Part shown: in pieces, positions 26,911 through 47,510 of the stretch | Position numbering within the stretch: the first letter of the stretch is position 1 | Layout: every line of letters starts with the position of its first letter | Origin: an uncultured Bacteroidales bacterium | Lineage (GTDB): Bacteria; Bacteroidota; Bacteroidia; Bacteroidales; UBA932 | NCBI GenBank assembly: GCA_905235445.1 | Contig: CAJOLJ010000012.1 | Location: 1 to 48,653, forward strand | Reading direction: 5' to 3' | DNA length: 48,653 bases | Position numbers and translations under genes: made by a program | Notes under the pieces: generated by a model | Seen by the model: the letters and a program-made list of their open reading frames with translations, nothing else | Database searches by the model: none | What the model was told of the DNA's origin: nothing

Positions 26911-26936
26911 CACGCCTTGAATTATCAGAAAAAATC

Positions 26937-28274: not shown

Positions 28275-28278
28275 AGAA

Positions 28279-28731: not shown

Positions 28732-28749
28732 CTTGATTCCTCCTTCTTT

Positions 28750-28929: not shown

Positions 28930-28941
28930 AATAGTTTCCTC

Positions 28942-29460: not shown

Positions 29461-29466
29461 ACCGAA

Positions 29467-29829: not shown

Positions 29830-29846
29830 AACTTAGTCCTCCTATT

Positions 29847-30407: not shown

Positions 30408-30426
30408 TGGTGTGTACTTTAAATAA

Positions 30427-30822: not shown

Positions 30823-30961
30823 TTTTTTTGTCTTTTTAAGGACCGGCGTCCGGGTGTGTCGGTATCCGGATGCCCGATATCCGATTGTTTATAAAATTGT
30901 TACTATATGAAGTATCCTTCGACCCCCTTCACAGAGGGCTGAAGGATTAACTTGGGTCAGA
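30823..30961 (-). promoter_or_regulatory. Unusually long spacer between rpsN and rpsH with hairpin and repeats
   Basis: Neighbouring genes here are spaced by 2-40 bp, but this gap is 139 bp. It contains a hairpin at 30914-30947 (ATCCTTC/GAAGGAT outside, CCCT/AGGG inside) and an imperfect 14-bp direct repeat (30859-30872 and 30874-30887, 10 of 14 identical). No TAnnTTTG promoter or T-tailed terminator is present. A control site for S8 or an RNA processing site is possible. Confidence 0.35.
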
Positions 30962-31231
30962 CTACCAGCTAGCTTTCTTAACACCGGGGATGAGACCGTT
31001 GGAAGCCATCTCGCGGAACTGGATACGGCTGAGCCCGAAGGCACGCATATATCCCTTGGGACGTCCGGTGAGGGAGCAGCGGTTGTGAAGGCGTACCCTT
31101 GAAGAGTTCTTGGGGAGCTTGTCGAGAGCGGCCCAGTCGCCGGCCTCTTTCAGAGCCTTTCTCTTCTCGGCATACTTTGCAACCATCTTTGCCCTCTTAA
31201 CTTCACGGGCTTTCATTGATTCCTTTGCCAT
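30962..31231 (-). CDS. rpsN: Ribosomal protein S14, zinc-independent long form
   Basis: This 89-residue small-subunit protein begins [20 protein letters not shown]. The C-terminus reads [20 protein letters not shown] and ends [11 protein letters not shown]. The length and the lack of paired CxxC motifs mark the zinc-independent form. It lies between rplE and rpsH. Confidence 0.97.
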
Positions 31232-31269
31232 TCTACTGTCTTTTAGGTTATTATAAAGCTTGCTAAGTA

Positions 31270-31869
31270 TTACTTGTTCTGCTTCTTGAAAGGAAGACCG
31301 AACTCCTTGAGAAGGGCGTGAGCCTCTTCGTCGGTCTTGGCGGTGGTCACGAAGGTGATCTCCATTCCGTGGATCTTGGGGTTCTTGTCCATGTCGATCT
31401 CAGGGAAGATGATCTGCTCCTTGAGTCCGAGGGTGTAGTTGCCCTGGCCGTCCATCTTCTCGGAAATACCGTTGAAGTCGCGGATACGGGGCAGGGAAAC
31501 CCTGATGAGCCTCTCGAGGAACTCGTACATCTTTACGTCACGAAGTGTAACCTTGGTCCCGATGGGCATCTTCTTACGGAGCTTGAAGTTGGAGACGTCC
31601 TTCTTGGAAGCTGTGATGACAGCCTTCTGTCCCACGATGAGGGAGAGTTCCTCAGCGGCCTCCTCGACGAGCTTCTTGTCCTGGGTGGCGTCACCGACAC
31701 CTTCGTTGATGGTGATCTTCACAAGCTTCGGGGCCTGCATCACGGTCGTATAGGAGAACTGCTTTACGAGGGCGGGAACTATCCTCTCGCGATACTCCTT
31801 CTTGAGGGTAGGTACATATCCCTTGGGCAGGGCCTGAACCTCTGCGGGTGCATTTTTCTTCTTTGCCAT
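31270..31869 (-). CDS. rplE: Ribosomal protein L5
   Basis: This 199-residue protein binds 5S rRNA in the central protuberance. Conserved parts are [40 protein letters not shown] and [20 protein letters not shown]. The N-terminus is about 15 residues longer than in E. coli ([20 protein letters not shown]), a common phylum variant. It lies between rplX and rpsN. Confidence 0.97.
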
Positions 31870-31871
31870 AA

Positions 31872-32186
31872 TTAGATCTCCTGTCCTGATTGTTTAGAGT
31901 AACGAACCTTCTTGTCTCCGTCCATCTTGTATCCTACGCGGGTAGCTTTCCCAGTCTTGGGGTCCACGAGCTGGACATTGGAGATGTGGATGGGGGCCTC
32001 CTGCTTCAGGATTCCGCCCTGAGGGTTCTTGGCCGTGGGTTTTGAATGCTTGGTGACGACGTTGACACCTTCTACGACGACGCGGTCTTCATCCCTGAGG
32101 ACCTGGAGGACCTTACCGACGGTACCCTTGTCATTGCCGGCGTTGACAATCACTGTGTCGCCTTTCTTAATATGAAACTTCTTCAT
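31872..32186 (-). CDS. rplX: Ribosomal protein L24
   Basis: This 104-residue assembly-initiator protein has the KOW motif ([20 protein letters not shown], residues about 7-26) and the segment [20 protein letters not shown]. It starts 14 bp after the rplN stop and ends 2 bp before rplE. Confidence 0.97.
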
Positions 32187-32200
32187 GATCTTTTCTGGTT

Positions 32201-32566
32201 TTAGAGGACCTCGGGTGCGAGGGAAACTATTTTCATGTAATTCTCCCTGAGCTCCCTGGCGACGGGACCGAAGATACGGGTTCCACGGAGTTCACCGTCA
32301 TTCTTTAGAAGGACGCATGCATTGTCGTCGAAACGGATGTAAGAACCGTCGGCCCTGCGGACCTCCTTCTTGGTGCGAACTACGACTGCCTTGGTTACGG
32401 AGCCCTTCTTGGCGTCACCGCCGGGCATTGCGCTCTTCACCGCCACGACAATCTTGTCTCCTACGGATGCATAACGACGGTTGGTACCGCCGAGGACACG
32501 GATGCAGAGGACTTCCTTTGCACCAGAGTTGTCAGCAACCTGTAAACGTGTTTCCTGCTGTATCAT
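32201..32566 (-). CDS. rplN: Ribosomal protein L14
   Basis: This 121-residue protein begins [20 protein letters not shown] and contains the conserved [40 protein letters not shown] and [10 protein letters not shown] segments. It is a rigid beta-barrel at the subunit interface. It lies between rpsQ and rplX. Confidence 0.98.
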
Positions 32567-32568
32567 CG

Positions 32569-32823
32569 CTATTTAACTTTTTCTACAATTTCTACTAATC
32601 TCCACCTCTTGGTCTTGCTGAGGGGGCGGGTCTCCATGATGCGGACTGTATCGCCCTCATCGCACTCGTTCTTTTCGTCCTGGGCGACGAACTTGGTCGT
32701 CTTGTTGACGAACTTGCCGTAGATGGGGTGTTTCTCCTTGGTCTTCACTGCCACGACGATGGTCTTGTCCATCTTGTTGCTGACGACGACACCGACTCTT
32801 TCTTTACGAAGATTTCTTTCCAT
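32569..32823 (-). CDS. rpsQ: Ribosomal protein S17
   Basis: This 84-residue 16S rRNA-binding OB-fold protein begins [20 protein letters not shown] and has [19 protein letters not shown] and [19 protein letters not shown]. It lies between rpmC and rplN. Confidence 0.97.
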
Positions 32824-32835
32824 AAGGCTTGAATG

Positions 32836-33033
32836 TTAGTCCTGATTTTTTTCTTTTTCGGCGAGGACGGTCATCAGGCGGGCGATGTCCTTGCGGGTCT
32901 TCTTGAACTTGGAGGTATCCTCCACGGGAGAGACTGCGTGATTGAGCCTGTCAGTGTCGAGCTGGGCCTGAAGGACTGCTATTTTGTCCTTGAGGTCGGC
33001 AATGTTCATCTCGCGAACTTCTGCTATTTTCAT
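32836..33033 (-). CDS. rpmC: Ribosomal protein L29
   Basis: This 65-residue helical hairpin protein begins MKIAEVREMNIADLKDKIAV and ends with the conserved KKTRKDIARLMTVLAEKE. It lies at the peptide exit site. The gene is between rplP and rpsQ. Confidence 0.95.
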   Translation of the reverse strand: MKIAEVREMNIADLKDKIAVLQAQLDTDRLNHAVSPVEDTSKFKKTRKDIARLMTVLAEKEKNQD

Positions 33034-33052: not shown

Positions 33053-33472
33053 TTATTCTACATAATCCCTGCGGACGACGAACTTGGTCGCAATGGGAAG
33101 CTTGGATGCTGCAAGGCGCATGGACTCCTTTGCGATCTGCAGGGAGACGCCTTCGGCCTCGAAGAGAATGCGGCCCGGGGTGATGGGGCAGACAAATCCC
33201 TGGGGATCTCCCTTACCCTTACCCATACGGGTTGAAAGTGGCTTCTTTGTTATGGGCTTGGAAGGGAATACGCGGATCCACACCTGGCCTTCACGGTTCA
33301 TGTGACGGGAAATGGCCTGACGGGCTGCCTCGATCTGCTGTGCGGTAAGCCAGCAGTTCTCGAGGGTCTTGAGACCGAACGATCCGAAGGCGAGCTGGTT
33401 GCCTCTCTGGGCGTTGCCCTTCATGACACCTTTCTGTTCCCTTCTGTGTTTTGTTTTCTTAGGCTGTAACAT
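33053..33472 (-). CDS. rplP: Ribosomal protein L16
   Basis: This 139-residue large-subunit protein begins [20 protein letters not shown] and contains [40 protein letters not shown] and the [10 protein letters not shown] strand. In other bacteria it directly follows rpsC. Here it heads a new transcription unit, with its own consensus promoter and an 85-nt leader, because about 10 kb of other genes separate it from rpsC. Confidence 0.98.
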
Positions 33473-33494
33473 CGCTGTATTACTTTATAATATT

Positions 33495-33523
33495 ATTCTC
33501 AAAATCCATAAACCATTGAGAAT
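33495..33523 (-). promoter_or_regulatory. Hairpin in the rplP leader
   Basis: ATTCTCAA (33495-33502) and TTGAGAAT (33516-33523) form a perfect 8-bp stem with a 13-nt loop inside the predicted rplP leader, 23 nt before the start. No T-run follows, so a translational control or stability role is more likely than termination. Confidence 0.45.
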
Positions 33524-33561
33524 CAGCTGGTTGGGCGAACTTCTCCTCGATTTTTGGATTG

Positions 33562-33590
33562 CAAAGATAGTGATTTTTTTTGAATTCAAA
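33562..33590 (-). promoter_or_regulatory. Promoter of the rplP-led ribosomal operon
   Basis: On the minus strand TTTG (33590-33587) is followed after 17 bp by TATCTTTG (33569-33562), in a strongly AT-rich setting. Transcription near 33555 gives an 85-nt leader before rplP. Confidence 0.75.
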
Positions 33591-33825
33591 ACCATAGCAC
33601 GAAATTTTTTTAACTTTTTCGACACAAAAAATTCATAGTCATCTAACGAATTTTCAGTAACTTACACACACTGGCCCCATTTCCAAGAATGACATTTTCG
33701 ACATGGGAAAACAGGCCCTAAATGACATTAATCGTTTTAGGGGAACAAAGCCAGAAAAAGATGGCGGGAAAAGAGGCCTGAACAGTGTCAAGTATGACAG
33801 TCGAGAGGGGTTGGAACGGAAATTG

Positions 33826-34575
33826 ATGGGAATGGTGGCGATGATTATTTTTCATTCACATACCGGGTACCCTGCGAAAAGCCCCACGCAGGGAATAGGC
33901 TCTCTGCTGGCGGCAGCGTGCCTTGTTTCCCTGTGCACCATTTTCACCCTTCCCGCCCGCTGCCAGAACCTCAATGACCGGAACTTCATGGAAATGCGGG
34001 TCGAGAACGGGGACACGGTCTTCGTGGACGTTCTCCCTCCCGCCAGGGTATGGGAGAGGCTTCCCCGCCAGAAAGGCAGGGACTGGAGGAAGTACTACAG
34101 GATGGTGTACAATTTCAGCAAAGTGTATCCTTTCGCCCTCGAGGCCAGGGATATCCTACGGGAAACCGACAGCACCTTCTCTACAGGCAAGCTGTCCAGG
34201 GCCAAGAAGGACCGCTACATCAACGCCATCCAGAACGACCTCGCCAAGAGGTATGAGCCGGTCCTGCGCAAAATGACGATTTCACAGGGGAAGGTCCTGA
34301 TAAAGATGATCGCCCGGGAGACCGGGCTCTCGCCATACGAGATCATCCACGACTACAAGAACAGTGTGGCCGCAGGGTTCTGGCAAGGGGTAGCGAAGCT
34401 TTTCGACGGGGACCTCCGCGCCCATTACGATCCCCTGTACAATGACGAGGACGCACAGATGGAAGACCTTGTCATGAAATGGGAAAGCGGGGATTTCCCC
34501 GCTTTCTACTGGTCGCTATTCGGCAAGGACCCCGATATCCCCAAGTTGCCTGAGCGCAAATCGAAGAAAAAATAG
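33826..34575 (+). CDS. DUF4294-family secreted protein
   Basis: This protein of about 249 residues has an N-terminal signal peptide (hydrophobic core near residues 22-40, ending ARCQ) and a DUF4294 domain, shown by YYRMVYNFSKVYPFALEARD, the KVLIKMIARETG segment and AAGFWQGVAKLFDGDLRAHY. The family is Bacteroidetes-specific and its function unknown. The start is uncertain: ATG codons at 33826, 33832 and 33841 are all possible, and one at 33703 would add a non-hydrophobic leader. Its last 70 bp overlap the convergent lpxH gene. Confidence 0.75.
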   Translation: MGMVAMIIFHSHTGYPAKSPTQGIGSLLAAACLVSLCTIFTLPARCQNLNDRNFMEMRVENGDTVFVDVLPPARVWERLPRQKGRDWRKYYRMVYNFSKVYPFALEARDILRETDSTFSTGKLSRAKKDRYINAIQNDLAKRYEPVLRKMTISQGKVLIKMIARETGLSPYEIIHDYKNSVAAGFWQGVAKLFDGDLRAHYDPLYNDEDAQMEDLVMKWESGDFPAFYWSLFGKDPDIPKLPERKSKKK

Positions 34576-35303
34576 CTCTCCCCCTTCATCCAGTCCTTCA
34601 GCACAAGGAGCCTCTCCCCCGTGGGGAGGGTCTCGTCGACGAAGGTATGGTAGTGCCCGAAGATGAAATAATCGACCTTGTGGCTACGGGCATACTCAAG
34701 AGCGAAATTCCACAGGGGGACCTTTCCCTTCTCGAACTTGTATTCCCCGTGATGGTCGTGGGAGAGGCGGTTGGAATGGGACCAGCCGTAGCCCAGGGCG
34801 AAGGCAAGGCGGGGATGGAGGGTGGAAAAGAGCGCCTGAAGCACCTTGCTATGGAACATCCAATGCAGGAAACGGTCCTTGAGGCTCGCGCTTCCCAGCG
34901 AATCCCCGTGTCCCAGACAGAAGACTTTCCCTCCGAGTGTCACCGTGAAAGGCTGCTGCATCTTTATCATCCCCAGCTCCTCGAAATACGAGTACGCCCA
35001 CACGTCATGATTCCCGGGGCAGAAGTACACTTTCACCCCGTTGTCGATAAGGTCCAGGATCTGCGCAAACACCCTTACGTAGCCCTTCGGGACCACGTAC
35101 TTGTATTCGTACCAGAAATCCCATATGTCCCCGAGAAGGAAAAGGGAATGGGTCCTGCTGCGGGAAAGGGAGGCAAGAAAAGAAACGAACCTCCTCTCCC
35201 GCCCCTCCGGGTCCTGGTGTTCAAGTCCCAGATGTACGTCCGAGGCGAAGAAGCAAAGCGTCCTCCCCTCCTCAACTGCCGACACTGGGGTTTCTTCTGC
35301 CAT
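34506..35303 (-). CDS. lpxH: UDP-2,3-diacylglucosamine diphosphatase (LpxH-like)
   Basis: This 265-residue calcineurin-like phosphoesterase has the full metal-motif set: SDVHLG, GDIWDFW, GNHD, GHGDSLG and GHYH. It would hydrolyse UDP-2,3-diacylglucosamine to lipid X in lipid A synthesis. The length fits the LpxH group of Bacteroidetes. The C-terminal 23 codons overlap the DUF4294 gene on the other strand. The gene follows uppP by 12 bp and is probably co-transcribed with it, a pairing of two envelope-lipid enzymes. Confidence 0.85.
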   Translation of the reverse strand: MAEETPVSAVEEGRTLCFFASDVHLGLEHQDPEGRERRFVSFLASLSRSRTHSLFLLGDIWDFWYEYKYVVPKGYVRVFAQILDLIDNGVKVYFCPGNHDVWAYSYFEELGMIKMQQPFTVTLGGKVFCLGHGDSLGSASLKDRFLHWMFHSKVLQALFSTLHPRLAFALGYGWSHSNRLSHDHHGEYKFEKGKVPLWNFALEYARSHKVDYFIFGHYHTFVDETLPTGERLLVLKDWMKGESYFFFDLRSGNLGISGSLPNSDQ

Positions 35304-35315
35304 GGGATGAGCTGC

Positions 35316-36167
35316 TTAGCCGAGGATGAGAATGAGGACTGCGACTATGACGCAGTACAGGGCGAACCAGGAGAGCTTTGACTTGCGGACCAGCGCAACC
35401 ATCGCCTTGCAGGCAAAGAGTCCCGAAAGGAATGCCGAGACAAATCCCAGTATGAGGGCCCCGACACCGACTCCGCCACCGAGAACTTCGCTACCCGAGG
35501 CGACCTTCAGGATGTCAAGGAGCTGTTCCCCCAAAATGGGGACGAGCACCATGAGGAAGGAGAACTGCGCCATGACGGAGCGCTTGACTCCGCTCACCAG
35601 ACCCGTTGCAATCGTGGTCCCCGAGCGGGAAAGTCCGGGAGCCACGGCCAGGGACTGGCCAATACCGACGATAAATGCCTGCAGGTATGATATTCCGTTT
35701 CTGGGTCCCTTCTCCTCGGCGAGGGGTGTCCCCTTGGCATCATCCTGCTTTTTCTCCTTCCCGCCTATGCGGACATGGTCGGAGAGGAAAAGAAGCACTG
35801 CGGTTATGATGAGGCATATTCCCACCACCGTAAGGGAGTCCCCGAAGAGGGCCTCCACTTTATCCTTGAACAGGAATCCCACTACCGCTACCGGTATCAT
35901 GGACACTATGAGCTTGCAGATGTAGTCGGTCTCGTCGTTGTATTTGAACTTGAAAAGGCCCTTCAGAAGAGCCCAGATCGCACTCCAGAATACTATTATG
36001 GTGCTGAGCACGGTCGCCATGTGGACGGTGACGGTGAAATCGAGGAAACCTTCCCCGTCGACACCCAGCAGTTCCTTGAATATCATAAGATGCCCGCTGC
36101 TGCTCACAGGCAGGAATTCAGTAAGCCCCTGGACCAGCCCAAGGAGAATGGCTTGCCACCAATTCAT
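35316..36167 (-). CDS. uppP: Undecaprenyl-diphosphatase
   Basis: This 283-residue polytopic membrane enzyme recycles the cell-wall lipid carrier by removing a phosphate from undecaprenyl diphosphate. The diagnostic motifs are LTEFLPVSSSGHL near the N-terminus and PGLSRSGTTIATGL near residue 185. It follows the DUF3098 gene by 46 bp, the common ftsX-DUF3098-uppP order of the phylum. The truB gene usually next in that order is not present; lpxH follows. Confidence 0.95.
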   Translation of the reverse strand: MNWWQAILLGLVQGLTEFLPVSSSGHLMIFKELLGVDGEGFLDFTVTVHMATVLSTIIVFWSAIWALLKGLFKFKYNDETDYICKLIVSMIPVAVVGFLFKDKVEALFGDSLTVVGICLIITAVLLFLSDHVRIGGKEKKQDDAKGTPLAEEKGPRNGISYLQAFIVGIGQSLAVAPGLSRSGTTIATGLVSGVKRSVMAQFSFLMVLVPILGEQLLDILKVASGSEVLGGGVGVGALILGFVSAFLSGLFACKAMVALVRKSKLSWFALYCVIVAVLILILG

Positions 36168-36213
36168 TGTAGATAGAATTAAATATGTAGTTGTCTTAAG
36201 TTATCGGGAGGGT

Positions 36214-36531
36214 CTATTTGCGGCCACCCTTTGCGCTTCTGGCGGGTGCACTTTTCTGCGGGGCCTGGCCTTTCGTGGAAGTTGTCTTCCCCTTCTGGGG
36301 GGTCTCCTTGTCCTTGAAATAGCCCATTATGGCCACGACCTCGATTACCACGCCGCACAGAATGACGATGGGTGCGGCCACAAGCCTCCTGAAGTCGAAC
36401 ATCGCAGGGTTGAAGACGGAGCTGTCCTTCATTCCTCCCCCGGCCATGAGGAAGTATCCGGCTACCATCAGGAGAAGTCCCACCAGCAACATCTTTATCC
36501 CCTTGCGGGTCATTGCAAATCCTTTATCCAT
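36214..36531 (-). CDS. DUF3098-family membrane protein
   Basis: This 105-residue protein has two predicted transmembrane helices (about residues 13-31 and 50-70) and a basic, Lys/Ser/Pro-rich tail (KGKTTSTKGQAPQKSAPARS). DUF3098 proteins are encoded between ftsX and uppP in many Bacteroidetes. The function is unknown. A link to divisome or envelope work is inferred only from that conserved context. Confidence 0.75.
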   Translation of the reverse strand: MDKGFAMTRKGIKMLLVGLLLMVAGYFLMAGGGMKDSSVFNPAMFDFRRLVAAPIVILCGVVIEVVAIMGYFKDKETPQKGKTTSTKGQAPQKSAPARSAKGGRK

Positions 36532-36564
36532 ACTCTTGGCGTAAATAATTCTTTGTAAACAATC

Positions 36565-37440
36565 CTAATAATAAAGTTCGTCCCGGGTCATCGCCACCAT
36601 CTTATTCGCCACCGACCGTGTGCTCAGGAGGCAGATCAGAAGCCCGAACAGCACTATTATCACTATGGACACCATTATGGCCACGGGACTGAAGACCTCG
36701 AACATCTGCAGGAACTCTGTCCTCAGCCAGAAGAGGATCCCGAGCAGGAGGAGGGTCGCTATCACGGAGGCGAAAAGCCCCATGAGAGCCGCCTTCTCCA
36801 TGAATGGCCTGCGGATGAAGGACGGGGTGGCGCCGACAAGTTTCATGGTGTACACGGTCTGCCTCTTGTCCAGGAATGACAGGCGCATCATGTTCGATAT
36901 GAGGACGAACGATATGAACAGCAGCACCCCTATCATGACAGCCAGTATACCGGAAATCTTCCCCAGGTTCTCGCTGAGGTCCTCCACCAGGTCCTGCTGG
37001 TAAACCACCTCATCCACCGGTTCGAACGCCTCGACCACCTTCCTTACTTCCATAAGCCCCTCCGGGGTCACCTGGGAAGGCAGGAGGTTCATGTTGAACG
37101 AAACCGGGATCGGGCTGGTCTCGAACACCGACATGAAATCCTCCCCGAGGAGTTCCTTCATCTCGCTCTCCCCCTGGTCCCTCGTGACCAGGGTCACCGC
37201 CGATACGAACGGCAGGGAGTCCAGCTTCTCCTTGAACACATAGGCATCGTCCTCCTGCACCTCGGGATTGAGAAGGACCGATACCTGCATATTGCTTTTA
37301 ATATGGTCCATCACCTGGGAGGAATTCACCATCAGGAGGCTTGCGACACCCACCAGCAAAAGCACCAGACTGATACTGATAACAGAGGAAAGGTAGGCAC
37401 TCCGAAGGCGGCGCTTGATTATTTTATTTGCCTGTGACAT
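36565..37440 (-). CDS. ftsX: Cell-division protein FtsX
   Basis: This 291-residue permease has an N-terminal cytoplasmic basic segment, a first transmembrane helix (SVISISLVLLLVGVASLLMV), a large extracytoplasmic loop and three C-terminal helices, the FtsX topology. It partners FtsE ATPase and activates peptidoglycan hydrolases through EnvC-like proteins. The EnvC-like gene at 4.7 kb is a possible partner. The start ATG at 37440 (MSQANKIIKRRLRSAYLSSV) is preferred over one 30 codons upstream. No ftsE gene is adjacent. Confidence 0.9.
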   Translation of the reverse strand: MSQANKIIKRRLRSAYLSSVISISLVLLLVGVASLLMVNSSQVMDHIKSNMQVSVLLNPEVQEDDAYVFKEKLDSLPFVSAVTLVTRDQGESEMKELLGEDFMSVFETSPIPVSFNMNLLPSQVTPEGLMEVRKVVEAFEPVDEVVYQQDLVEDLSENLGKISGILAVMIGVLLFISFVLISNMMRLSFLDKRQTVYTMKLVGATPSFIRRPFMEKAALMGLFASVIATLLLLGILFWLRTEFLQMFEVFSPVAIMVSIVIIVLFGLLICLLSTRSVANKMVAMTRDELYY

Positions 37441-37509
37441 ATAGGAAAGAGGAACTCGGTAGGGATGGGACAGCCTTTGGGGGCAGGCCACATGCGCCCA
37501 AGTTGGCCT

Positions 37510-37517
37510 CAAATATA
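37510..37517 (-). promoter_or_regulatory. -7 element of the ftsX promoter
   Basis: The minus strand reads TATATTTG, an exact TAnnTTTG match, giving a leader of about 65 nt before ftsX at 37440. The upstream TTTG box is not clear. It is divergent to the promoter at 37549. Confidence 0.45.
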
Positions 37518-37548
37518 GTGAAAAGTTCAATTATGGGAAAAATTTTGT

Positions 37549-37556
37549 TAACTTTG
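37549..37556 (+). promoter_or_regulatory. -7 element of the GT5/DUF4270 promoter
   Basis: TAACTTTG is an exact TAnnTTTG match 60 bp before the GT5 start at 37616. Transcription near 37563 leaves a leader of about 53 nt that contains an 18-codon reading frame. Confidence 0.55.
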
Positions 37557-37572
37557 CAGGAATTAATCTGAT

Positions 37573-37629
37573 ATGGCAACACCTCATTATCAGGTTTGGC
37601 TTAAACTGTCAGAAAATGGGAGAGTCTAA
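37573..37629 (+). CDS. Short upstream reading frame overlapping the GT5 start
   Basis: An ATG ten nt after the predicted transcription start opens an 18-codon frame (MATPHYQVWLKLSENGRV) that ends 14 nt inside the GT5 gene, in another frame. It could couple translation to the next start, but it may equally be chance. No family is recognised. Confidence 0.25.
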   Translation: MATPHYQVWLKLSENGRV

Positions 37630-38428
37630 AAAAATACTGTTCGTAAATTCGGAGATATACCCCTATCTCCCCGAGAATACCATATCCGCCATAGGACGCT
37701 ACCTGCCCCAGGGAATCCAGGAGCGCCGCAACGAAATCCGTTCCTTCATGCCCCGCTACGGGTGCATCAACGAGAGGAAGAACCAGCTCCATGAAGTGAT
37801 AAGGCTTTCGGGTATGAACATCATCATCAACGATGTGGACAGGCCCCTTGTCATCAAGGTCGCGAGCATATCGGCAGCCAGGATGCAGGTCTACTTCATC
37901 GACAACGACGACTACTTCCGCCGGAAGAGGACTTTCACCGACGAGAGCGGAAAGTTCTATGACGACAACGGGGAAAGGGCCATTTTCTTCGCCCGTGGAG
38001 TCCTGGAGACCGTGAAGAAACTTCGCTGGGCTCCCGACATCATCCACTGCCAGGGGTGGATCTCCCACTTCATCCCCCTGTACCTTAAGAAAGCCTACAG
38101 AGACGATCCCATATTCTCCCACTGCAAGATTGTCCTCTCCCTCTATGACGACACCCCCGAGACGTTCCGAAGCGACCTCGCGCGCCTTGCCCGCTTCTCA
38201 TCCATAGGCCCCGAGGAACTGTCTCTCATCGACAATCCCACTGGCATAAATCTTGCAAAATTAGCCATCAAGTATTCGGACGGCATAATTGTCGGCTCCT
38301 CCGAAATTGAGAAAGAGGAACTTGAGTACTGCGACGAACTCTCCCTGCCTGTCCTTCCATTCGACATGGAAAGTCTTGCGGACGACTCCTACATCGACCA
38401 GTACAACAGTTTCTACAGCAAAATTTAG
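37616..38428 (+). CDS. One-domain glycogen/starch synthase-like GT5 protein
   Basis: This 270-residue protein matches only the N-terminal catalytic domain of GT5 glycogen synthases: KKILFVNSEIYPYLPEN, GRYLPQGIQERRNEIRSFMP, and APDIIHCQGWISHFIPLY. The nucleotide-sugar-binding C-terminal half is missing, and the stop is clean, so this is not a frameshift. Such half proteins are common in Bacteroidetes and lie next to DUF4270 genes, as here (22 bp downstream). Without the second domain it is unlikely to be a standard synthase; a binding or regulatory role is possible. Confidence 0.75.
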   Translation: MGESKKILFVNSEIYPYLPENTISAIGRYLPQGIQERRNEIRSFMPRYGCINERKNQLHEVIRLSGMNIIINDVDRPLVIKVASISAARMQVYFIDNDDYFRRKRTFTDESGKFYDDNGERAIFFARGVLETVKKLRWAPDIIHCQGWISHFIPLYLKKAYRDDPIFSHCKIVLSLYDDTPETFRSDLARLARFSSIGPEELSLIDNPTGINLAKLAIKYSDGIIVGSSEIEKEELEYCDELSLPVLPFDMESLADDSYIDQYNSFYSKI

Positions 38429-38450
38429 AACCACCGCATCACAGACAGAT

Positions 38451-40103
38451 ATGGGAATGCATATCCTTGGGCAGGCGGCAAAGGTCGTGGCGGGCGTAGC
38501 CGCTGCGCTGATTTGCTTCTCCTGCGTGGAAAAGAATCATGAAATAGGCGATTCTTATCTCGCCATCAACCAGCAATACGACCTGTACACCGCAGAAATC
38601 CCCATTACCGACATGAGGATGGACTTTGCGGACAGCCTGTCGGGATTCTCGATGTACCGCTTCACTTTCGGAAGCGTCAGGGACAAGGACTACGGGCTCA
38701 CAACCAGGAGCACGGCCTTCACGCTGGTCCCCATCAGCGACACACTCGATTTCGGCACGAACCCGGTATTCCGCCAGTTCCATTTCGCGGCACCGTCCGA
38801 CTCCATATCCTGCAATGACCCCGCCCAGGCCTCCATCCTGCAGAACGTGAATGTGTACGCCCTTAAAAGGACGCTGAACCTCAGCAGTTCCGAACCCAAG
38901 ATTGAGTATGACCCTGTCAGGGTAACCGACGGAATTCCCATCTATAACGGTTCCGACTCCCTGTCGTTCAACTTCACCAAGGAGTTCGGTGAACAGTACA
39001 TGAAGATAAACTACAAGACGGACCTTGACACCATAACCTCTTACACCAAGAAGTTCCCCGGCATCTACATCACGACCGAGACACCCATCGGGAACGGGGG
39101 CAGGATCAACATGTTCAAGCTCCCCATGAACGTCAGCGGCTCCACCATCTACGGAAGTTTCGCGGAGCTGAAGTTCACCGCCACCTATACCCGCACGAGC
39201 GGGACGCAGGAGAGGGTCGATACCTCATTCCTGTTCTGCCTTGGCCCGATGGACATCTACGACTTCGGCGGAGTGTCCTCCACCACCGTGAGCGAATACC
39301 CCCAGATAGCCTACGACCTCACCACCCATGAGACCGAGGCGATGGTAGGCGTCGCGACCGATAAGGTTTATTTCGAGGGAGGAAGGGGGCTCAAGCCCAT
39401 CATCAAGGCCGAGGCCCTTCGTAGCGGCCTCATCGAGGAAGTGTCCAAGCACGGGGATCCCGCCAAGACCGTGGTCACGAGAGCCACTCTGTGCCTGCCT
39501 TTCGAGTTCCCCGAAGACTACGCTGACCTTGAATACTTCCCCACCATCATGAGCCCCACCAGCCGCATTGTCTATGACAACGGGCGCATTTCATTTGCGG
39601 GACTTACAGATGCGAGCGTATCCTCCGAGAACCAGGGCGACATCAACCGCTCCCTTGGCCGTTATGCCCCGGACATCTCCCACCATGCACAGCAGCTGAT
39701 GCACCTGGGGAACCTCGACAAGATAGAGAACTACGATATCTGGATGCTACCCCTCAGAAACGAGGTCATCACCGAGAGTACCGCATCCTCGGAGACTTCG
39801 GATCTCGCGTCCCTGTACCAGCAACTGGCTTACCAGAGCTACTACAACAATATGTACGGCGGGGGGTATGGATACGGCGGTTATGGCGGATATGGCGGAT
39901 ACGGCTACAACTCATACACCAATTACTACAATTACATGATGATGGCCCAGTACTACGCCAGCGCAAGCTCCGGCTCCTCGGCCACCACCCAGACAATGGT
40001 CGACTTCCACCGCTTCTACAAAGGCTATCTGAACGGTCCTGGCGCTACGACCGGAAAGAAGCCATACATCAAGATTGTCTACGCCATTCCCAAGGAAGAC
40101 TGA
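38451..40103 (+). CDS. DUF4270-family lipoprotein
   Basis: This 550-residue protein has a lipoprotein signal with lipobox Cys25 (ICFSC) and the DUF4270 opening HEIGDSYLAINQQYDLYTAE. The family is restricted to Bacteroidetes and of unknown function. Near residues 466-500 it carries a Tyr/Gly/Asn-rich tract (GGGYGYGGYGGYGGYGY and following), which is low complexity. The ATG at 38451 is chosen because it begins the signal peptide; a longer frame from 38289 only reads across the GT5 gene. It is probably co-transcribed with the GT5 gene and ends at a bidirectional terminator. Confidence 0.8.
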   Translation: MGMHILGQAAKVVAGVAAALICFSCVEKNHEIGDSYLAINQQYDLYTAEIPITDMRMDFADSLSGFSMYRFTFGSVRDKDYGLTTRSTAFTLVPISDTLDFGTNPVFRQFHFAAPSDSISCNDPAQASILQNVNVYALKRTLNLSSSEPKIEYDPVRVTDGIPIYNGSDSLSFNFTKEFGEQYMKINYKTDLDTITSYTKKFPGIYITTETPIGNGGRINMFKLPMNVSGSTIYGSFAELKFTATYTRTSGTQERVDTSFLFCLGPMDIYDFGGVSSTTVSEYPQIAYDLTTHETEAMVGVATDKVYFEGGRGLKPIIKAEALRSGLIEEVSKHGDPAKTVVTRATLCLPFEFPEDYADLEYFPTIMSPTSRIVYDNGRISFAGLTDASVSSENQGDINRSLGRYAPDISHHAQQLMHLGNLDKIENYDIWMLPLRNEVITESTASSETSDLASLYQQLAYQSYYNNMYGGGYGYGGYGGYGGYGYNSYTNYYNYMMMAQYYASASSGSSATTQTMVDFHRFYKGYLNGPGATTGKKPYIKIVYAIPKED

Positions 40104-40130
40104 TTCCGGGGAATGACACTGCACCAAAAG

Positions 40131-40163
40131 AAAAAAGCCGGGGGATGACCCTGGCTTCTTTCG
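40131..40163. terminator. Bidirectional terminator between DUF4270 gene and acpP
   Basis: GCC-GGG pairs with CCC-GGC (40137-40155, one mismatch, 5-nt loop). The flanks are A-rich on the left and T-rich on the right, so both strands gain T-runs. It ends the convergent DUF4270 (plus) and acpP (minus) transcripts. Confidence 0.8.
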
Positions 40164-40208
40164 TTTGCACACTTGAAAATGTGTAACGATTAGTGATGAG
40201 GTAAATTT

Positions 40209-40454
40209 TTACTCTCCTACGTACTCTTCAACGTACTTGATGGCATCTCCAACTGTCTGGATGTTCTGTGCCTCGTCCTCGGAAATGCTGATTCCGAAAA
40301 CCTGCTCAAACTCCATGAGAAGCTCCACTGTGTCGAGTGAGTCTGCACCAAGGTCGTTGTTGAAGCTTGCGGTCTCGGTTACTTCTGCTGGATCGGCGCT
40401 GAGCTTGTCAACGATGATCTCCTGGACCTTGCTAACGATTTCTTCGTGTGTCAT
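40209..40454 (-). CDS. acpP: Acyl carrier protein
   Basis: This 81-residue acidic protein contains the phosphopantetheine attachment motif [18 protein letters not shown], with the modified Ser near residue 40. It carries acyl chains in fatty acid synthesis and needs activation by a phosphopantetheinyl transferase, such as that at 9.1 kb. It has its own promoter and a terminator, and no fabF follows, unlike the common acpP-fabF order. Confidence 0.96.
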
Positions 40455-40508
40455 GATTGAAATTGAGTTTATGTTTATTTTAATACACTTTTATTTCATG
40501 TCCCGAGG

Positions 40509-40527
40509 TACCCCATGTTTTGGGGTA
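40509..40527 (-). promoter_or_regulatory. Hairpin in the acpP leader
   Basis: TACCCCA (40509-40515) and TGGGGTA (40521-40527) form a perfect 7-bp stem with a 5-nt loop, close to the predicted 5' end of the acpP transcript. This may protect the abundant mRNA. No T-run follows. Confidence 0.4.
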
Positions 40528-40545
40528 TAATACCACAATGGCTTG

Positions 40546-40553
40546 CAAAGTTA
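40546..40553 (-). promoter_or_regulatory. -7 element of the acpP promoter
   Basis: The minus strand reads TAACTTTG, an exact TAnnTTTG match. Transcription near 40539 gives a leader of about 85 nt. The -33 box is weak. Confidence 0.55.
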
Positions 40554-40685
40554 GCATTTTTTTCAATATAATGAACTATTGTCCCCAAAATCGGCATCCG
40601 CCCACTCATTATCCCTGAACACTATAGCCACTATACCAACTCTTTGCCAATGAGATTTACCCGCAGGTGCGAAGCGCCACCTCTC

Positions 40686-41504
40686 TCAGCAGCAAGACTT
40701 GTGCTGCTCAGGTGCGAGTGCATCCTCCTTGCTCAGAGCCAGCCATATCCTGAGGCCGTTTATGGAGTTCAGCAAGTAGAAGGAATACTTGATTACCATG
40801 ACGACCGTATACGTTGAGGCTGAGGGACTCATCAAGCGGTTAACCCAGAGCATGATCGAGAAGATGTTCACCAGGTTCCACAGGTACCACTGGTCAGCGT
40901 AGGCGAAGGACATCAGAACCTGGCCTGCGATATTGAGGACCACGACAAATGCATCCAGGAAAATCTTTCCCCTGTCAATGACCTCGATCCTTCCGGCATT
41001 GAATTGGGTGAGGTCTATCCAGTAAAGGATGCCGTACGCCGCTGCGGTACCTGCCACCACGGATGCCGCCGCAATGGCCCACTGCTTGGCGGTAAGGCGT
41101 CTTGCCTTCACCCTCCTGGTCTTCCCCCCTTCGTCCTTCCTGGTGTCGGCACCTCTTTTTCTCCACTGCCAGAACCCCACGAACTGCATGGGCAGGAAGT
41201 ACAGCAGATGCTGCAGGAACTGGCCCATGTTGCCGCTGTCCGCATTGGCATAGGCACAGATGCCGACGTCAATCACTCCGAACAGGAATGTCCAGATGTT
41301 CCCGTTTGCGCTCAGGACCGTATTCACGACCCCCATGAGGGCCCCAAGGGCTATGACTATCTGTTTCACGACCTGGACCTCGGGGTCCTGGAGCTTGAAG
41401 ATATTCACTACCGCTACGGCCGTAGCCATCCCCACGAGAATGAAGATATTGAAAAACTTGTTGAACTTGGTGTCCGTGATGGACGAAGTCTTTGTCGAGG
41501 ACAT
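40686..41504 (-). CDS. pnuC: PnuC-like nicotinamide riboside/mononucleotide transporter
   Basis: This 272-residue membrane protein shows the PnuC pattern: LSANGNIWTFLFGVIDVGIC, PMQFVGFWQWRKRG, and a C-terminal WYLWNLVNIFSIMLW followed by a last helix. PnuC proteins import NAD precursors down a gradient. A basic loop (residues about 120-145) separates helices. The gene follows uvrC by 30 bp and may share its transcript. No thiamine or other vitamin riboswitch is seen, so the thiamine-specific PnuT relative is less likely. Confidence 0.8.
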   Translation of the reverse strand: MSSTKTSSITDTKFNKFFNIFILVGMATAVAVVNIFKLQDPEVQVVKQIVIALGALMGVVNTVLSANGNIWTFLFGVIDVGICAYANADSGNMGQFLQHLLYFLPMQFVGFWQWRKRGADTRKDEGGKTRRVKARRLTAKQWAIAAASVVAGTAAAYGILYWIDLTQFNAGRIEVIDRGKIFLDAFVVVLNIAGQVLMSFAYADQWYLWNLVNIFSIMLWVNRLMSPSASTYTVVMVIKYSFYLLNSINGLRIWLALSKEDALAPEQHKSCC

Positions 41505-41534
41505 TTGAGTGGGTTTCGTTAAATTGATATTTCT

Positions 41535-43400
41535 CTATTCCTGCGCCCCCTGTTCCCCGCCTGTGTCACCTGTTCCCTCCACCTCATCATCTCCCGGTAT
41601 CGTTGAAATGTTGTTCAGGTGGGAAAGGATCCTCTCGCAAAGGGCCCTGTTGCCCAGGAAGGCCGCCAGGTCCTCCAGCTTTGCTGCCGCAATCCTTGAG
41701 ACACTGCCATAGTGCAGAAGGAGCCTCTGCTCGGTTTTTTCGCCCACACCCGGTATCTCCCTTAGCGCAGAGTCAAGCTGACCCTTGCTTCGGAGGTTCC
41801 GGTGGAATGTGATGCCGAAACGGTGGGCTTCGTCACGGATCTGCTGCAGGAGCTTGAGCGACTGGGAGTTCCGGTCAAGGAAAAGCGGATAAGGGTCGCC
41901 TATGCGTATTACCTCCTCCATCCTCTTGGCAAGTCCCACCACCATGAGCTTGTCGGTAAGTCCGAGTTCGGAAAGAGCCTGCCATGCGAAATCCAGCTGG
42001 CCTTTCCCGCCGTCAATGACGATGAGCTGAGGCAGGTCCTCCGGGTTCTCACAGAGCATCCTCGAATACCTCCTGTTCACCACCTCCTTCATGCTCGCGA
42101 AATCGTTCGCCCCGACGACGGTCTTTATCTTGAAGTGACGGTAGTCCTTCTTCGACGGGACTCCGTCCCTGAAGACGACGCAGGAAGCCACGGGGTTCGT
42201 GCCCTGGATATTGGAGTTGTCGAAGCACTCCATGTGGGTGGGAAGGGTGTCCATGCCGAGGGCCGAGGCCAGCTCCTCAAGGACTTTGCGGTGGAACTCC
42301 TCCGGGTCGGAGTGCTCCCTTTGGCGAAGGGCATTGGCCCTCATCTCGGAAGCATTGCGGGTACTGAGGTCCAGAAGGGAGAGTTTGTCTCCCTTGACCG
42401 GTATCCTCCACTGCACACCTTCTATCTCCACATCGGGCAGGAAGGGGACAATGACAAGAGAGGAAAGCTGCCCGAACTTGCTCTCGACCTCAGCTATGAA
42501 TGTCGAAAGCACGCTCTCCCTCTCCTCCTCTATCCCCAACTTGAAACCGAGGTTCAGGGACTGGACCACGCTTCCTCCCCTTATTCTCATGAAGTTGCCC
42601 CAGCCCTCGCCTTGGTCCAGGACAAGGGAGAACACGTCACAGTCCGAGTCCACTGCCGAAGTGATGATCGATTTTGAATAGTGCTTCTCGATGCAGGACA
42701 TCTTATCCTTGTATAGGGCAGCCTGCTCGAAATCCAGACGCTGCGCCGCTTCCATCATGAGGGAACGGTACTTCTCTATCATCTGGCGTCCCCCGCTGCG
42801 GAGCATGGAGGTTATCTCCTGGATGTAGGTGGAATACTCATCCTTGGATATCCCTCCCACACAGCATCCCTTGCACCTGCCAAGATGCATTTCCAGGCAG
42901 GGGCGGAACTTGTGATGGAGGATGGCGGCAGAGTCTATCTTATTGTTGCAGGTACGCAGCGGATAGAGTTCCGAGAAGAGGTCCAGCATGCTCCTGGCAT
43001 GCATGACCGAGGAATAGGGCCCGAAGTACTTGGACCCGTTATGGACGACCCTGCGGGTGAGGAAAACCTTGGGGAAGTCATCCGCGGTAATGCATATCCA
43101 GGGGTAGGTCTTGGAGTCCTTCAGGAGGATGTTGTACTTTGGCTTGTACTGCTTGATCAGGTTGTTCTCAAGGAGCAGGGCATCCGCCTCGCTGTCAACC
43201 ACGGAGTACTGCGCATCCGCAATCCTGGACACGAGGACCCGGGTCTTGCCGTTCAGACGGTCCGGGGAGACAAAGTACTGCGCGACCCTCTTGTGCAGGT
43301 CCTTGGCCTTGCCGATATAGATGATGTTCCCCTCGGAGTCATAATAACGGTAGACTCCGGGGGAATGGGGGAAAAAGGATATTTTCTCTTTGACGTCCAT
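41535..43400 (-). CDS. uvrC: Excinuclease ABC subunit C
   Basis: This 621-residue nuclease makes both cuts in nucleotide excision repair. Domains in order: GIY-YIG (SPGVYRYYDSEGNIIYIGKA, residues about 10-90), a UVR helical hairpin (LDFEQAALYKDKM), an RNase H-like domain (MECFDNSNIQGTNPVAS), and a C-terminal HhH motif (REIPGVGEKTEQRLLLHYGS). The start at 43400 is preferred because an alternative ATG at 43424 lies only 4 nt from an 11-bp hairpin. It lies 55-79 bp after rpsC, an unusual neighbour. Confidence 0.95.
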   Translation of the reverse strand: MDVKEKISFFPHSPGVYRYYDSEGNIIYIGKAKDLHKRVAQYFVSPDRLNGKTRVLVSRIADAQYSVVDSEADALLLENNLIKQYKPKYNILLKDSKTYPWICITADDFPKVFLTRRVVHNGSKYFGPYSSVMHARSMLDLFSELYPLRTCNNKIDSAAILHHKFRPCLEMHLGRCKGCCVGGISKDEYSTYIQEITSMLRSGGRQMIEKYRSLMMEAAQRLDFEQAALYKDKMSCIEKHYSKSIITSAVDSDCDVFSLVLDQGEGWGNFMRIRGGSVVQSLNLGFKLGIEEERESVLSTFIAEVESKFGQLSSLVIVPFLPDVEIEGVQWRIPVKGDKLSLLDLSTRNASEMRANALRQREHSDPEEFHRKVLEELASALGMDTLPTHMECFDNSNIQGTNPVASCVVFRDGVPSKKDYRHFKIKTVVGANDFASMKEVVNRRYSRMLCENPEDLPQLIVIDGGKGQLDFAWQALSELGLTDKLMVVGLAKRMEEVIRIGDPYPLFLDRNSQSLKLLQQIRDEAHRFGITFHRNLRSKGQLDSALREIPGVGEKTEQRLLLHYGSVSRIAAAKLEDLAAFLGNRALCERILSHLNNISTIPGDDEVEGTGDTGGEQGAQE

Positions 43401-43428
43401 ATCGTCACCGGCCCGAAAATACATTTAA

Positions 43429-43456
43429 GGCCCATCCCGGGTAAACGGGACAGGCC
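43429..43456 (-). terminator. Hairpin after rpsC, possible attenuator
   Basis: On the minus strand GGCCTGTCCCG pairs with CGGGATGGGCC over 11 positions (two G-T) with a 6-nt loop. The tail (TTAAATGTATTTT) is T-poor at first, so termination is uncertain. It sits between rpsC and uvrC and may lower read-through from the ribosomal operon. Confidence 0.5.
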
Positions 43457-43479
43457 ATAGTTCAATCCTTAGGTACTGA

Positions 43480-44259
43480 TTACTCAGCCCTGTCGGAATC
43501 CCGACGTGACCTTCCACCGCGACGTGACCCACGGTCACCGTCACGACGGTTGCCACCCCTGGATCCGCCCCTGCTCTGTCCGCCCTGTCCCTGTGCGGGA
43601 GCGGCGTTCAGACCGGCGTTGGGGGAGAGATCCCTCTTGCCGTAGACCTCGCCGTTGCAGATCCAAACCTTGATACCGAGGCAACCTACCTTGGTGTTTG
43701 CGATTGCAAGAGCGTAATCAATGTCAGCACGGAAGGTGTGAAGAGGGGTACGTCCCTCTTTGTACATCTCGCTGCGAGCCATTTCGGCACCGCCGACACG
43801 GCCGCTGATCTGGACCTTGATTCCCTCTGCGCCAACCCTCATTGCGGAAGCGATGGCGAGTTTGATGGCCCTGCGGTAGGACACGCGGCTCTCGATCTGA
43901 CGGGCGATGGTGTCAGCCACGATACGGGCGTCGACCTCGGGACGGCGAACCTCGAAGATGTTGATCTGGACATCCTTCTTGGTGACCTTCTTGAGCTCTT
44001 CCTTCAGATGCTCGACCTCTGCGCCTCCACGACCGATGATCATGCCGGGCCTTGCGGCCTGGATGGTGACGGTTATGAGCTTGAGAGTCCTCTCGATGAC
44101 AATCTTGGAGATGCTTGCCTTGGAAAGGCGATTCTCGAGATACTGGCGGATCTTGTAGTCCTCAGCTATCTTCTCTGCGTAGTTTCCACCGCACCAGTTG
44201 GAGTCCCAACCACGGGTGATACCGATTCTATTGCTTATAGGATTTGTTTTCTGTCCCAT
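43480..44259 (-). CDS. rpsC: Ribosomal protein S3
   Basis: This 259-residue protein begins [20 protein letters not shown]. It has the KH domain ([20 protein letters not shown]) and the C-domain ([20 protein letters not shown]). The last 40 residues form an Arg/Gly-rich tail ([20 protein letters not shown]) that is longer than in E. coli S3. It is the last ribosomal gene of the first half; rplP, which normally follows, lies about 10 kb away. Confidence 0.97.
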
Positions 44260-44271: not shown

Positions 44272-44709
44272 TTAAGCCTCCTCGGGGGTTGTTGTTGCTG
44301 CTGCGGGTTGCGGCTTGACATCGAGAATGACGGTGACATGGTTGCTGCGCTTGCGGATACGTCCGGCTCTTCCCTGAGGGCAGGGACGGATTCTCTTGAG
44401 GGTGCGGCCTTCACCGACCATGATGGTCTTGACAATGACGTTGCCGTTGTCAAGTTCTGCTTTCTTATCCGGGTTCTTGGACTCCCAGTTTGCGATAGCA
44501 CTGCGAAGAAGTTTCTCAAGACGCACTGAGGGTGCCTTCTTTGAGTACCTGAGAAGGTCGAGGGCCTGGTTGACCTCTTTTCCACGTATGGTGTCCACCA
44601 CCAGACGCATCTTGCGAGGGGATGTGGGCACTTCATTGAGCTTGGCAACGGCTACCTGCTTTTTCTCTTCCTTGAGCCTCTCGGCCATTTCGCGTTTACG
44701 TTTTCCCAT
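44272..44709 (-). CDS. rplV: Ribosomal protein L22
   Basis: This 145-residue protein has the L22 core [30 protein letters not shown] and [20 protein letters not shown], whose loop lines the exit tunnel. The N-terminus carries an extra charged stretch of about 20 residues, and the C-terminus ends [13 protein letters not shown]. It lies between rpsS and rpsC. Confidence 0.97.
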
Positions 44710-44732: not shown

Positions 44733-45005
44733 TTACTTCTTATTGTTGCCGGAGTGGCCCCTGAATGTCCTTGTGGGGGCGAACTCACCAAGCTTGTGAC
44801 CGACCATGTTCTCTGTGACATAAACGGGGATAAACTTGTTTCCGTTATGGACAGCGATAGTGTGGCCAACGAAATCAGGGGAGATCATGCTGGCGCGTGA
44901 CCAAGTCTTCACGACCTCCTTCTTCTTGCTACCATCATTCATAGCAAGAATTCTCTTCTCCAGGGCTTCCTGGATATAGGGACCTTTTCTTAAAGAACGA
45001 CTCAT
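44733..45005 (-). CDS. rpsS: Ribosomal protein S19
   Basis: This 90-residue head protein begins [20 protein letters not shown] and contains [20 protein letters not shown] and [15 protein letters not shown]. It lies between rplB and rplV. Confidence 0.97.
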
Positions 45006-45027: not shown

Positions 45028-45843
45028 TTACTTCTTTCTTCTTTCGATGATGAACTTGTTGGAGGTAGCCTTAGGATTACGTGTCTTGTATCCCTTTGCA
45101 GGCAGACCCTTGCGGGAACGGGGGTGACCGCCGGAGGCCCTACCTTCACCACCACCCATAGGGTGATCATGAGGGTTCATGACGACACCACGGTTGTGGG
45201 GACGACGACCGAGCCACCTGGAACGTCCAGCCTTACCGTAGGACTCCAGATTGTGTTCAGGGTTGGAAACCGTACCGACGGTAGCGCGGCAGGTAACGAG
45301 GACCATCCTGGTCTCGCCGGAAGGGAGGCGGAGGATAGCGTGGTTGCCTTCACGGGCTGCGAGCTGTGCGAATGTTCCGGCGGAACGTGCCATTGCGGCA
45401 CCCTGGCCGGGACGCAGTTCGATGTTGTGTACGAGTGTTCCGACAGGAATATCACTCAGAGGGAGAGCATTGCCGACCTCGGGAGCAATCCCGGAGCCGG
45501 AGCAGATCTCCTGACCGACTTTAAGTCCGTTGGGAGCGATGATGTATCTCTTCTCACCGTCAGCATACTCCACGAGGGCGATGCGTGCGGAACGGTTGGG
45601 ATCGTATTCAATGGTGAGGACCTTTGCAGGGCAGTTGTCCTTGTAGTCGATGACACGGTACATCCTCTTGTGGCCGCCGCCTCTGTAGCGTACGGTCAGC
45701 TGACCTGTGTTGTTGCGTCCGCCCTTTGACTTTAGGGGCTCAAGGAGTGCCTTGTGGGGAGTTGTGCAGGTAATCTCGTCGAAAGAGCTGATCACCTTAT
45801 TCCTTTGACCGGGAGTTGTCGGTTTGAATTTTCTCATTGCCAT
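45028..45843 (-). CDS. rplB: Ribosomal protein L2
   Basis: This 271-residue peptidyl-transferase-centre protein begins [20 protein letters not shown] and carries the conserved [40 protein letters not shown] and the C-terminal [14 protein letters not shown], whose His is important for activity. It lies between rplW and rpsS. Confidence 0.98.
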
Positions 45844-45856: not shown

Positions 45857-46147
45857 TTAAACGCTTGCATAGAAATCAATCTGGCTTCCGTCAGCGAGAG
45901 TGACGTAAGCTTTCTTGAAGTGGTTTGACCTACCGCGGACGAGTCCCTTCTTAGTGAAGCGGGACTTCCTCTTACCATTATAATTGAGAGTGTTGACGTC
46001 AACCACGGTCACACCGTAAGTCTCCTCAACAGCCTTCTTTATCTGTATCTTGTTTGCAGAACGGTCCACTACGAAACCGTAACGGTTCAACTTTTCGCCC
46101 TGAGCCGTCATCTTTTCTGAAACGATTGGCTTAATAATAATACCCAT
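45857..46147 (-). CDS. rplW: Ribosomal protein L23
   Basis: This 96-residue exit-site protein, the docking point for trigger factor and SRP, begins MGIIIKPIVSEKMTAQGEKL. It has NRYGFVVDRSANKIQIKKAV and VNTLNYNGKRKSRFTKKG. It lies between rplD and rplB. Confidence 0.97.
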   Translation of the reverse strand: MGIIIKPIVSEKMTAQGEKLNRYGFVVDRSANKIQIKKAVEETYGVTVVDVNTLNYNGKRKSRFTKKGLVRGRSNHFKKAYVTLADGSQIDFYASV

Positions 46148-47480: not shown

Positions 47481-47510
47481 CAAAGGTACAACTATTTCTC
47501 CAATTTTCAA
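47481..47510 (-). promoter_or_regulatory. Promoter of the rplC-led ribosomal operon
   Basis: On the minus strand TTG (47510-47508) is followed after 19 bp by TACCTTTG (47488-47481), a TAnnTTTG match. Transcription near 47474 gives a leader of about 56 nt. A near-palindrome CGCAAA/TTTGCG at 47461-47474 lies at the predicted start. Confidence 0.7.

Follow-up and report, generated by a model that had tools for sequence, protein, structure and literature searches.

The window described here is the whole of a 48,653-nt contig (C12 in our numbering; CAJOLJ010000012.1 of assembly GCA_905235445.1) from the genome of an uncultured Bacteroidales bacterium (3.82 Mb in 190 contigs), and the system in question is its S10-spc run of ribosomal protein genes, which is split into two halves. 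Both rplP (L16; 33053-33472) and rpsC (S3; 43480-44259) are on the minus strand, and the 10,007 bp between them (33473-43479) are occupied by ten ordinary genes, from uvrC, 55 bp past rpsC, to a DUF4294 gene. Gene order within each half is as usual on the minus strand, from rplC (46795-47418) through rpsC and from rplP through infA (25893-26111). The separation of about 10 kb between two otherwise ordered runs, which a preliminary description of the window had pointed out, is therefore real. The whole assembly contains a single L16 match and a single S3 match, both at this locus. The features are given below in the direction in which the ribosomal protein genes are read; rplC to rplV were assigned by the order of the open reading frames and by tblastn matches in relatives, and the two promoters by the motif found in split relatives.

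47481..47488, minus strand: predicted promoter TACCTTTG (-7 type), 70 nt upstream of rplC, with a TTG box that ends 19 nt before it
46795..47418, minus strand: rplC (L3)
46162..46791, minus strand: rplD (L4)
45857..46147, minus strand: rplW (L23)
45028..45843, minus strand: rplB (L2)
44733..45005, minus strand: rpsS (S19)
44272..44709, minus strand: rplV (L22)
43480..44259, minus strand: rpsC (S3; S3 match), terminal gene of the detached unit
41535..43424, minus strand: uvrC (PF08459 and others), first interposed gene, on the same strand as rpsC
40686..41504, minus strand: pnuC-like nicotinamide mononucleotide transporter (PF04973)
40209..40454, minus strand: acpP, acyl carrier protein (PF00550)
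38457..40103, plus strand: gene called DUF4270 in the preliminary description, found in the same place in many relatives
37616..38428, plus strand: starch-synthase-type glycosyltransferase, GT5 (PF08323)
36565..37440, minus strand: ftsX (PF02687, PF18075)
36214..36531, minus strand: DUF3098 protein (PF11297)
35316..36167, minus strand: uppP, BacA (PF02673)
34506..35303, minus strand: calcineurin-type phosphoesterase, presumably LpxH-like (PF00149)
33703..34575, plus strand: DUF4294 protein (Pfam match)
33562..33569, minus strand: predicted promoter TATCTTTG, 97 nt upstream of rplP
33473..33561, minus strand: predicted rplP transcript leader with a short cross-genus motif (alignments of relatives)
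33053..33472, minus strand: rplP (L16; L16 match), first gene of the spc run
25893..33033, minus strand: rest of the spc run, rpmC-rpsQ-rplN-rplX-rplE-rpsN-rpsH-rplF-rplR-rpsE-(rpmD)-rplO-secY-map-infA, with names partly read from the sequences and rpmD below the size limit for open reading frames

Pfam matches confirmed the families of nine of the ten interposed genes as they had first been named, lpxH only as Metallophos; the exception is the gene at 38457-40103, which has no match at E<=1e-3. That gene is nevertheless common at this position among members of the clade described below. The view that the interposed genes are chromosomal rather than mobile also held: among the ten proteins no transposase, integrase or other mobile gene was found with Pfam, no repeat of 18 nt or more occurs in the three junction stretches searched, and no tRNA was found at the junctions, the one tRNA in the scan lying 22 kb away.

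The 80 best named relatives of the RpsC protein are uncultured Bacteroidales or Bacteroidia. The nearest include Candidatus Cryptobacteroides (L005, L015, L016), with Candidatus Coprenecus (L078, L079) more distant, and from these the genus of the window, numbered g1 in our survey, is probably Candidatus Cryptobacteroides. The family is UBA932 of GTDB and the phylum Bacteroidota. The split is not an event of this genome: comparison of gene order in the relatives showed that it is shared by 14 genera, which form one clade. We drew 149 family genomes that were at least 90% complete and could place both genes in 142 of them, of which 8 have rpsC and rplP adjacent, 118 (14 genera) have them split, and 16 have them at contig ends without assignment. 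The adjacent genomes fall in five genera (one each in g6, g7 and g19, two in g16 and three in g17), and the one genome of genus g20 gave no match. In 42 of the split genomes the pair lies on a single contig, 9.4 to 506 kb apart, and in 76 it lies on two contigs with the split evident from position or from a fetched flank; each of the 14 split genera has at least one demonstrated case. The rplP side was fetched for 77 split loci, and in no case does rpsC lie within 2 kb of it; three single-contig genomes (G102, G108 and G152) are split with 442, 274 and 155 kb between the halves.

Within g1, 101 genomes were searched, with L16 found in 87 and S3 in 83, and no same-contig pair was adjacent when read by eye. 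Of 62 g1 genomes, 26 have the halves 9.4-18 kb apart on one strand, 31 have them on two contigs, and five more have them on one contig at 64-506 kb (three on opposite strands, one in reverse order and one in line). Of 136 genomes from the order outside the family, 135 have the two genes side by side (domain gap 114-335 bp), as do all 72 genomes with matches elsewhere in the phylum, two of the 74 being without a match. The exception in the order is G237 (family f10, 700 contigs). Its rpsC abuts the end of a contig of 5.0 kb and its rplP is close to the end of another, of 4.6 kb (C565, C667; L160, L161); the 190 bp preceding this rplP encode a foreign frame in place of the rpsC terminus. In the other f10 genome, G343, rpsC and rplP are adjacent.

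The break proved to be double. In 21 genomes from 19 genera (one genome per genus, three in g1), rpsJ adjoins rplC in all five genera with an intact run and never in the 14 split genera. No rpsJ lies upstream of rplC in the window, and the sole rpsJ match of the assembly is on contig C64, behind a gene that we take from its own sequence to be fusA; fusA and rpsJ remain together in 16 split genomes. Because rpsJ and rplC are parted in the same genera as rpsC and rplP, the detached unit consists of seven genes, rplC-rplD-rplW-rplB-rpsS-rplV-rpsC, and the single break originally recognised, although present, is only one of two. Wherever the fetched loci contain the complete unit, its internal order is unchanged. 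The codon-scored gene caller applied to the loci misses some genes (for example rpsJ in L096, and rplP in L143, L145 and L149). The rearrangement did not leave operons whole, since the cuts lie between rpsJ and rplC and between rpsC and rplP, and both fall inside the S10 operon as usually defined.

Each half carries its own promoter motif, as had been proposed, 70 nt before rplC and 97 nt before rplP. The consensus TTG...TAnnTTTG is the Bacteroidetes type of promoter, and TAnnTTTG was sought from -180 to -40 relative to the start codon. It is present in every split locus, before rplC in 104/104 and before rplP in 80/80 (98/98 and 79/79 when only distinct upstream sequences are counted), with a TTG box 16-23 nt before the motif in 96/98 and 73/79 of the distinct sequences. 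Among intact loci it is found in 0/8 family members and, in the outgroups, in 0/14 for rplC and 0/15 for rplP; base shuffles predict it in 6 and 9%. The position of the rplC motif is almost fixed, at -68 to -71 in 75 of the 104 split loci. When the rplC regions of the 14 genera were compared in 91 pairs, anchored at the promoter or at the start codon, identity was 0.61 over the first 16 nt of the leader and 0.52 over its last 28 nt, whereas the 70 nt upstream of the promoter gave 0.26, which is the chance level. As the leader is alike between genera while the DNA above the promoter is not, the unit seems to take its promoter and leader along when it moves. Judged by these motifs, each half would be an independent operon with a predicted promoter of the Bacteroidetes type. 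There is no TAnnTTTG motif within 200 nt before uvrC, and since this gene follows rpsC by 55 bp on the same strand, transcription of uvrC and pnuC may start at the ribosomal promoter. The spacer between the two genes (43425-43479) holds a GC-rich hairpin without a T run, as read by eye.

Two trees place the split genera together. In the first, built from 15 ribosomal proteins of 41 genomes (IQ-TREE, LG+F+R4), all split genera form one group with an ultrafast bootstrap of 100, and g1 is nested deep within it as the sister of g14. In the second, built from the seven proteins of the unit with FastTree (122 tips after removal of duplicates), 101 of 101 split tips are in one clade with a support of 0.992. 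No tip within the split clade shows the intact order.

The ten interposed genes did not come from one place. They are scattered in the intact family members and in the outgroups; lpxH and uppP are on separate contigs in 8/8 intact family members, and in the single-contig outgroup G346 uvrC lies at 1.67 Mb, ftsX-uppP at 2.21, lpxH at 3.98 and DUF4294 at 0.27. A block ftsX-DUF3098-uppP-lpxH-DUF4294 stands just upstream of rplP, with no rpsC near, in g3, g4, g8, g9, g13, g14 and g18, with one or two genes between it and rplP in g3, g9, g13 and g18, and g15 has DUF4294 alone within the fetched stretch upstream of rplP. In 9 of the 14 split genera DUF4294 precedes rplP, either immediately or at a distance of up to about 4 kb; the block before rplP was not seen in g2, g5, g10, g11 and g12, where contig ends limit the view in g10 and g11. 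In all seven split genomes compared from g2, g3, g5, g9 and g12, uvrC is on another contig or at least 79 kb from the block. The occurrence of the block before rplP without rpsC in other split genera indicates that rplP most likely acquired its DUF4294 neighbourhood first, and that uvrC and the seven-gene unit settled upstream only in g1. The arrangement with 10 kb between the halves is derived and belongs to Candidatus Cryptobacteroides; the ten genes were gathered stepwise near rplP. A rearrangement, which had been preferred to an insertion from the outset, does fit better, although the ten genes were not moved as one piece.

The flanks of the unit change from genus to genus. The usual g1 context is the unit, a lipoprotein-like gene (c14), then uvrC-pnuC-acpP and onward to DUF4294 and the rplP run; the window is without c14. 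Downstream of rpsC in many members of g3, g9, g13, g15 and g18 there is a serine-hydrolase-like gene, shikimate-type genes or both (the names of these clusters come from inspection of their sequences), and in g2, g5, g8, g10, g12 and g14 there are quite other genes. Conservative parsimony on the tree, with open contexts scored as unknown (24 tips at the strictest setting), requires at least 13 changes of downstream context, one of them the split itself and at least 12 after it, in a scoring that lumps all other contexts in one state and may count small insertions beside rpsC. The smallest clade that contains all uvrC contexts has 63 tips, 45 of them with uvrC, at least 8 departures and a support of 0.844. 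Pieces of one to five genes beside or inside the interval (the genes before rplC, uvrC-pnuC, or DUF4294) are inverted in place in loci of different species (L032, L038, L047, L050, L051, L061, L062, L067 and L068).

We consider it very probable that the seven genes were excised once from the str-S10-spc run in the ancestor of the 14 genera, with a predicted promoter of their own, and were afterwards relocated repeatedly as a unit. Both cuts were most likely made by one event. The motifs at the two heads, as working promoters, would have freed both halves from co-transcription, and inversions could then have moved the unit around the chromosome, which is the weakest step. In the ancestor of Cryptobacteroides the unit would have come to rest upstream of the uvrC-pnuC-acpP stretch that leads to rplP, bringing the halves near each other again but not rejoining them. 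The str and spc runs are still on one strand in 4 of 16 split genomes, 39 kb apart in G102, 58 kb in G103, 47 kb in G107 and 92 kb in G112, as though the unit had been removed and other DNA had entered in its place; in the other 12 they are farther apart, on opposite strands or on other contigs. In G102 the origin, judged by sampled GC skew, is at about 0.62-0.74 Mb; the unit lies on the minus strand at 0.42 Mb and spc on the plus strand at 0.865 Mb, so that the two are roughly mirror-placed about the skew origin and both co-directional with replication, a layout that two overlapping inversions about the origin would yield. Inversions symmetric about the origin were suggested by G102 alone and are not backed by dnaA, and as the mechanism they might be kept as a weak possibility.

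Several explanations compete with a single excision. That the gap is an assembly or binning error in a metagenome-assembled genome (MAG) might be thought of for a draft in 190 contigs, and ribosomal protein genes are reported to drop out of MAGs (PMC9723686); this reading, which the preliminary description had allowed for, is refuted by identical junctions in many separate assemblies of different species and by the three split single-contig genomes, and we give it practically no credence. It is also very unlikely that the ten genes were inserted into an intact run and that the distant arrangements arose later. In 26 of the 62 Cryptobacteroides-group genomes the halves do share a strand, at a distance of 9.4-18 kb, but g1 branches from deep inside the split clade. 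In the branches that part earlier, DUF4294 precedes rplP and rpsC is found in another place, in many cases ahead of the serine-hydrolase-like and shikimate-type genes; uvrC is remote from the block in the seven genomes of other split genera, and rpsJ is detached as well. Insertion of a ten-gene cassette, in particular, was rejected on the arrangement in the earlier-branching genera. A similarly small chance attaches to the run having broken several times independently within the family, for which one might cite the modest support of some inner nodes, the variation of the flanks by genus, and G237, which in another family may be a separate break. Repeated breaks would have had to hit one and the same pair of gene boundaries in each of the 14 genera, and they agree poorly with the common promoter positions, with an rplC leader that is similar across genera below dissimilar upstream DNA, and with the union of all split tips in one clade. 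A further alternative, compatible with a single excision, is that the promoters ahead of rplC and rplP were present inside the run of an intact ancestor, and that this is why the later cuts could be tolerated. The gain and the break fall on the same branch of the tree, where their order is not visible, but none of the 8 intact family members has the motif at these places, and we regard this order of events as rather unlikely, with a good deal more to be said for it than for insertion or repeated breakage.

A number of observations weigh against a single excision followed by repeated relocation. The nodes that link the split clade to its closest intact relatives are weak (53 and 49 in the first tree), and both trees are built from the same ribosomal proteins. 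The first branch of the split clade is g11, where the 6 kb of available sequence upstream of rplP show no DUF4294 block, and this bears on the basal state. The position of rpsJ was read in one genome per genus (three in g1), and the lumped scoring of contexts touches the count of moves. Motifs do occur farther out in intact genomes: before rplP at -251 with a TTTG box in G119 and at -212 without one in G105, and at -198 to -283 of rplC, without a TTTG box, in five loci. The promoters are predicted from sequence. G237 may represent a small inserted gene, a second independent break or an error. In G102 dnaA lies at 0.08 Mb, away from the skew origin, and the GC skew of G108 and G152 has no clear pattern, which together make the step of inversion about the origin weak.

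The leader of rplP keeps AA-(5 nt)-YTGAnA..CA..TTA across genera while the stems vary (alignments A1 and A2), and its fold energies are low (mean z -1.69, n=79); RNAalifold predicted no pairs on either alignment, and the mutual information and covariation signal was weak. Rfam gave no match in 25000-48653 of the window, even at E<=1. The rplP leader might be a new ribosomal protein leader. Mimicry of the S8 site of 16S rRNA was considered by comparing the leader with that site by eye, no search being run, and was rejected: a few letters fit (AAGT...GATACT) in one Cryptobacteroides subtype, the inner stem is absent, and the resemblance was not seen in other genera. The first 40 nt of the rplC leader have a mean fold z of -2.26 (n=97). 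At the 5' end of this leader, in L002-L081, there is a short hairpin whose letters change (CCCGC...GCGGG, CCCAC...GTGGG, CCCC...GGGG) and which is perhaps stabilising. It is tempting to suppose that a promoter-leader of about 70 nt made seven essential genes into a portable operon that escaped the conserved row for good and toured the chromosome, and that a structured leader arose in the spc half as a new regulatory switch at rplP; we offer this as a tentative idea, doubtful as a whole.

Break-up of this gene cluster is known elsewhere, and the gain of promoters is the most informative part of the present case. In Brandis 2021 (PMC8046335), 115 rearrangements of the cluster are reported in Gammaproteobacteria and Bacilli, 75 of which leave operons whole; a new order often fails to persist, and operon pairs come to lie fully apart, an outcome ascribed there to relaxed selection on synteny. 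The same cluster is broken by chromosomal rearrangement in both studies, but most events described there leave operons whole, whereas here both cuts lie inside S10 and a promoter motif stands at each new head; the terms Bacteroid and promoter do not appear in that text. The S10-spc-alpha locus of Vibrio cholerae has reportedly also been placed at other chromosomal sites (PMC5347342, PMC10127744), but as a laboratory move in one species, while the present relocation is natural, involves seven genes and extends across a clade. Structured 5' leaders of ribosomal protein operons are known from Bacteroidia, for which a table of PMC7247131 has L13 and S4 leaders and lists none before rplC or rplP. 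A literature search, subscription papers aside, returned no report of the break in this clade, of a double cut inside S10, or of promoter gain at both heads.

It has long been asked why the S10-spc row is conserved almost without exception. Intact and split runs occur here among near relatives, the break can be assigned to a branch, and it is matched by a gain of promoters and followed by many moves, so that it becomes testable whether co-transcription or position holds the row together. Methods that expect the main ribosomal protein genes in one stretch of a contig will miss part of the set in these bacteria. The contig begins less than 1 kb upstream of rpsC in 27 of the 80 named RpsC loci, so that assemblies often break within the seven-gene unit. 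One genome of 1,050 contigs (G333) has two extra, divergent copies of L16 and S3 on contigs C523 and C540, perhaps through contamination, and the stretch fetched from G151, of genus g5, is identical to L078 over 9,101 bp.

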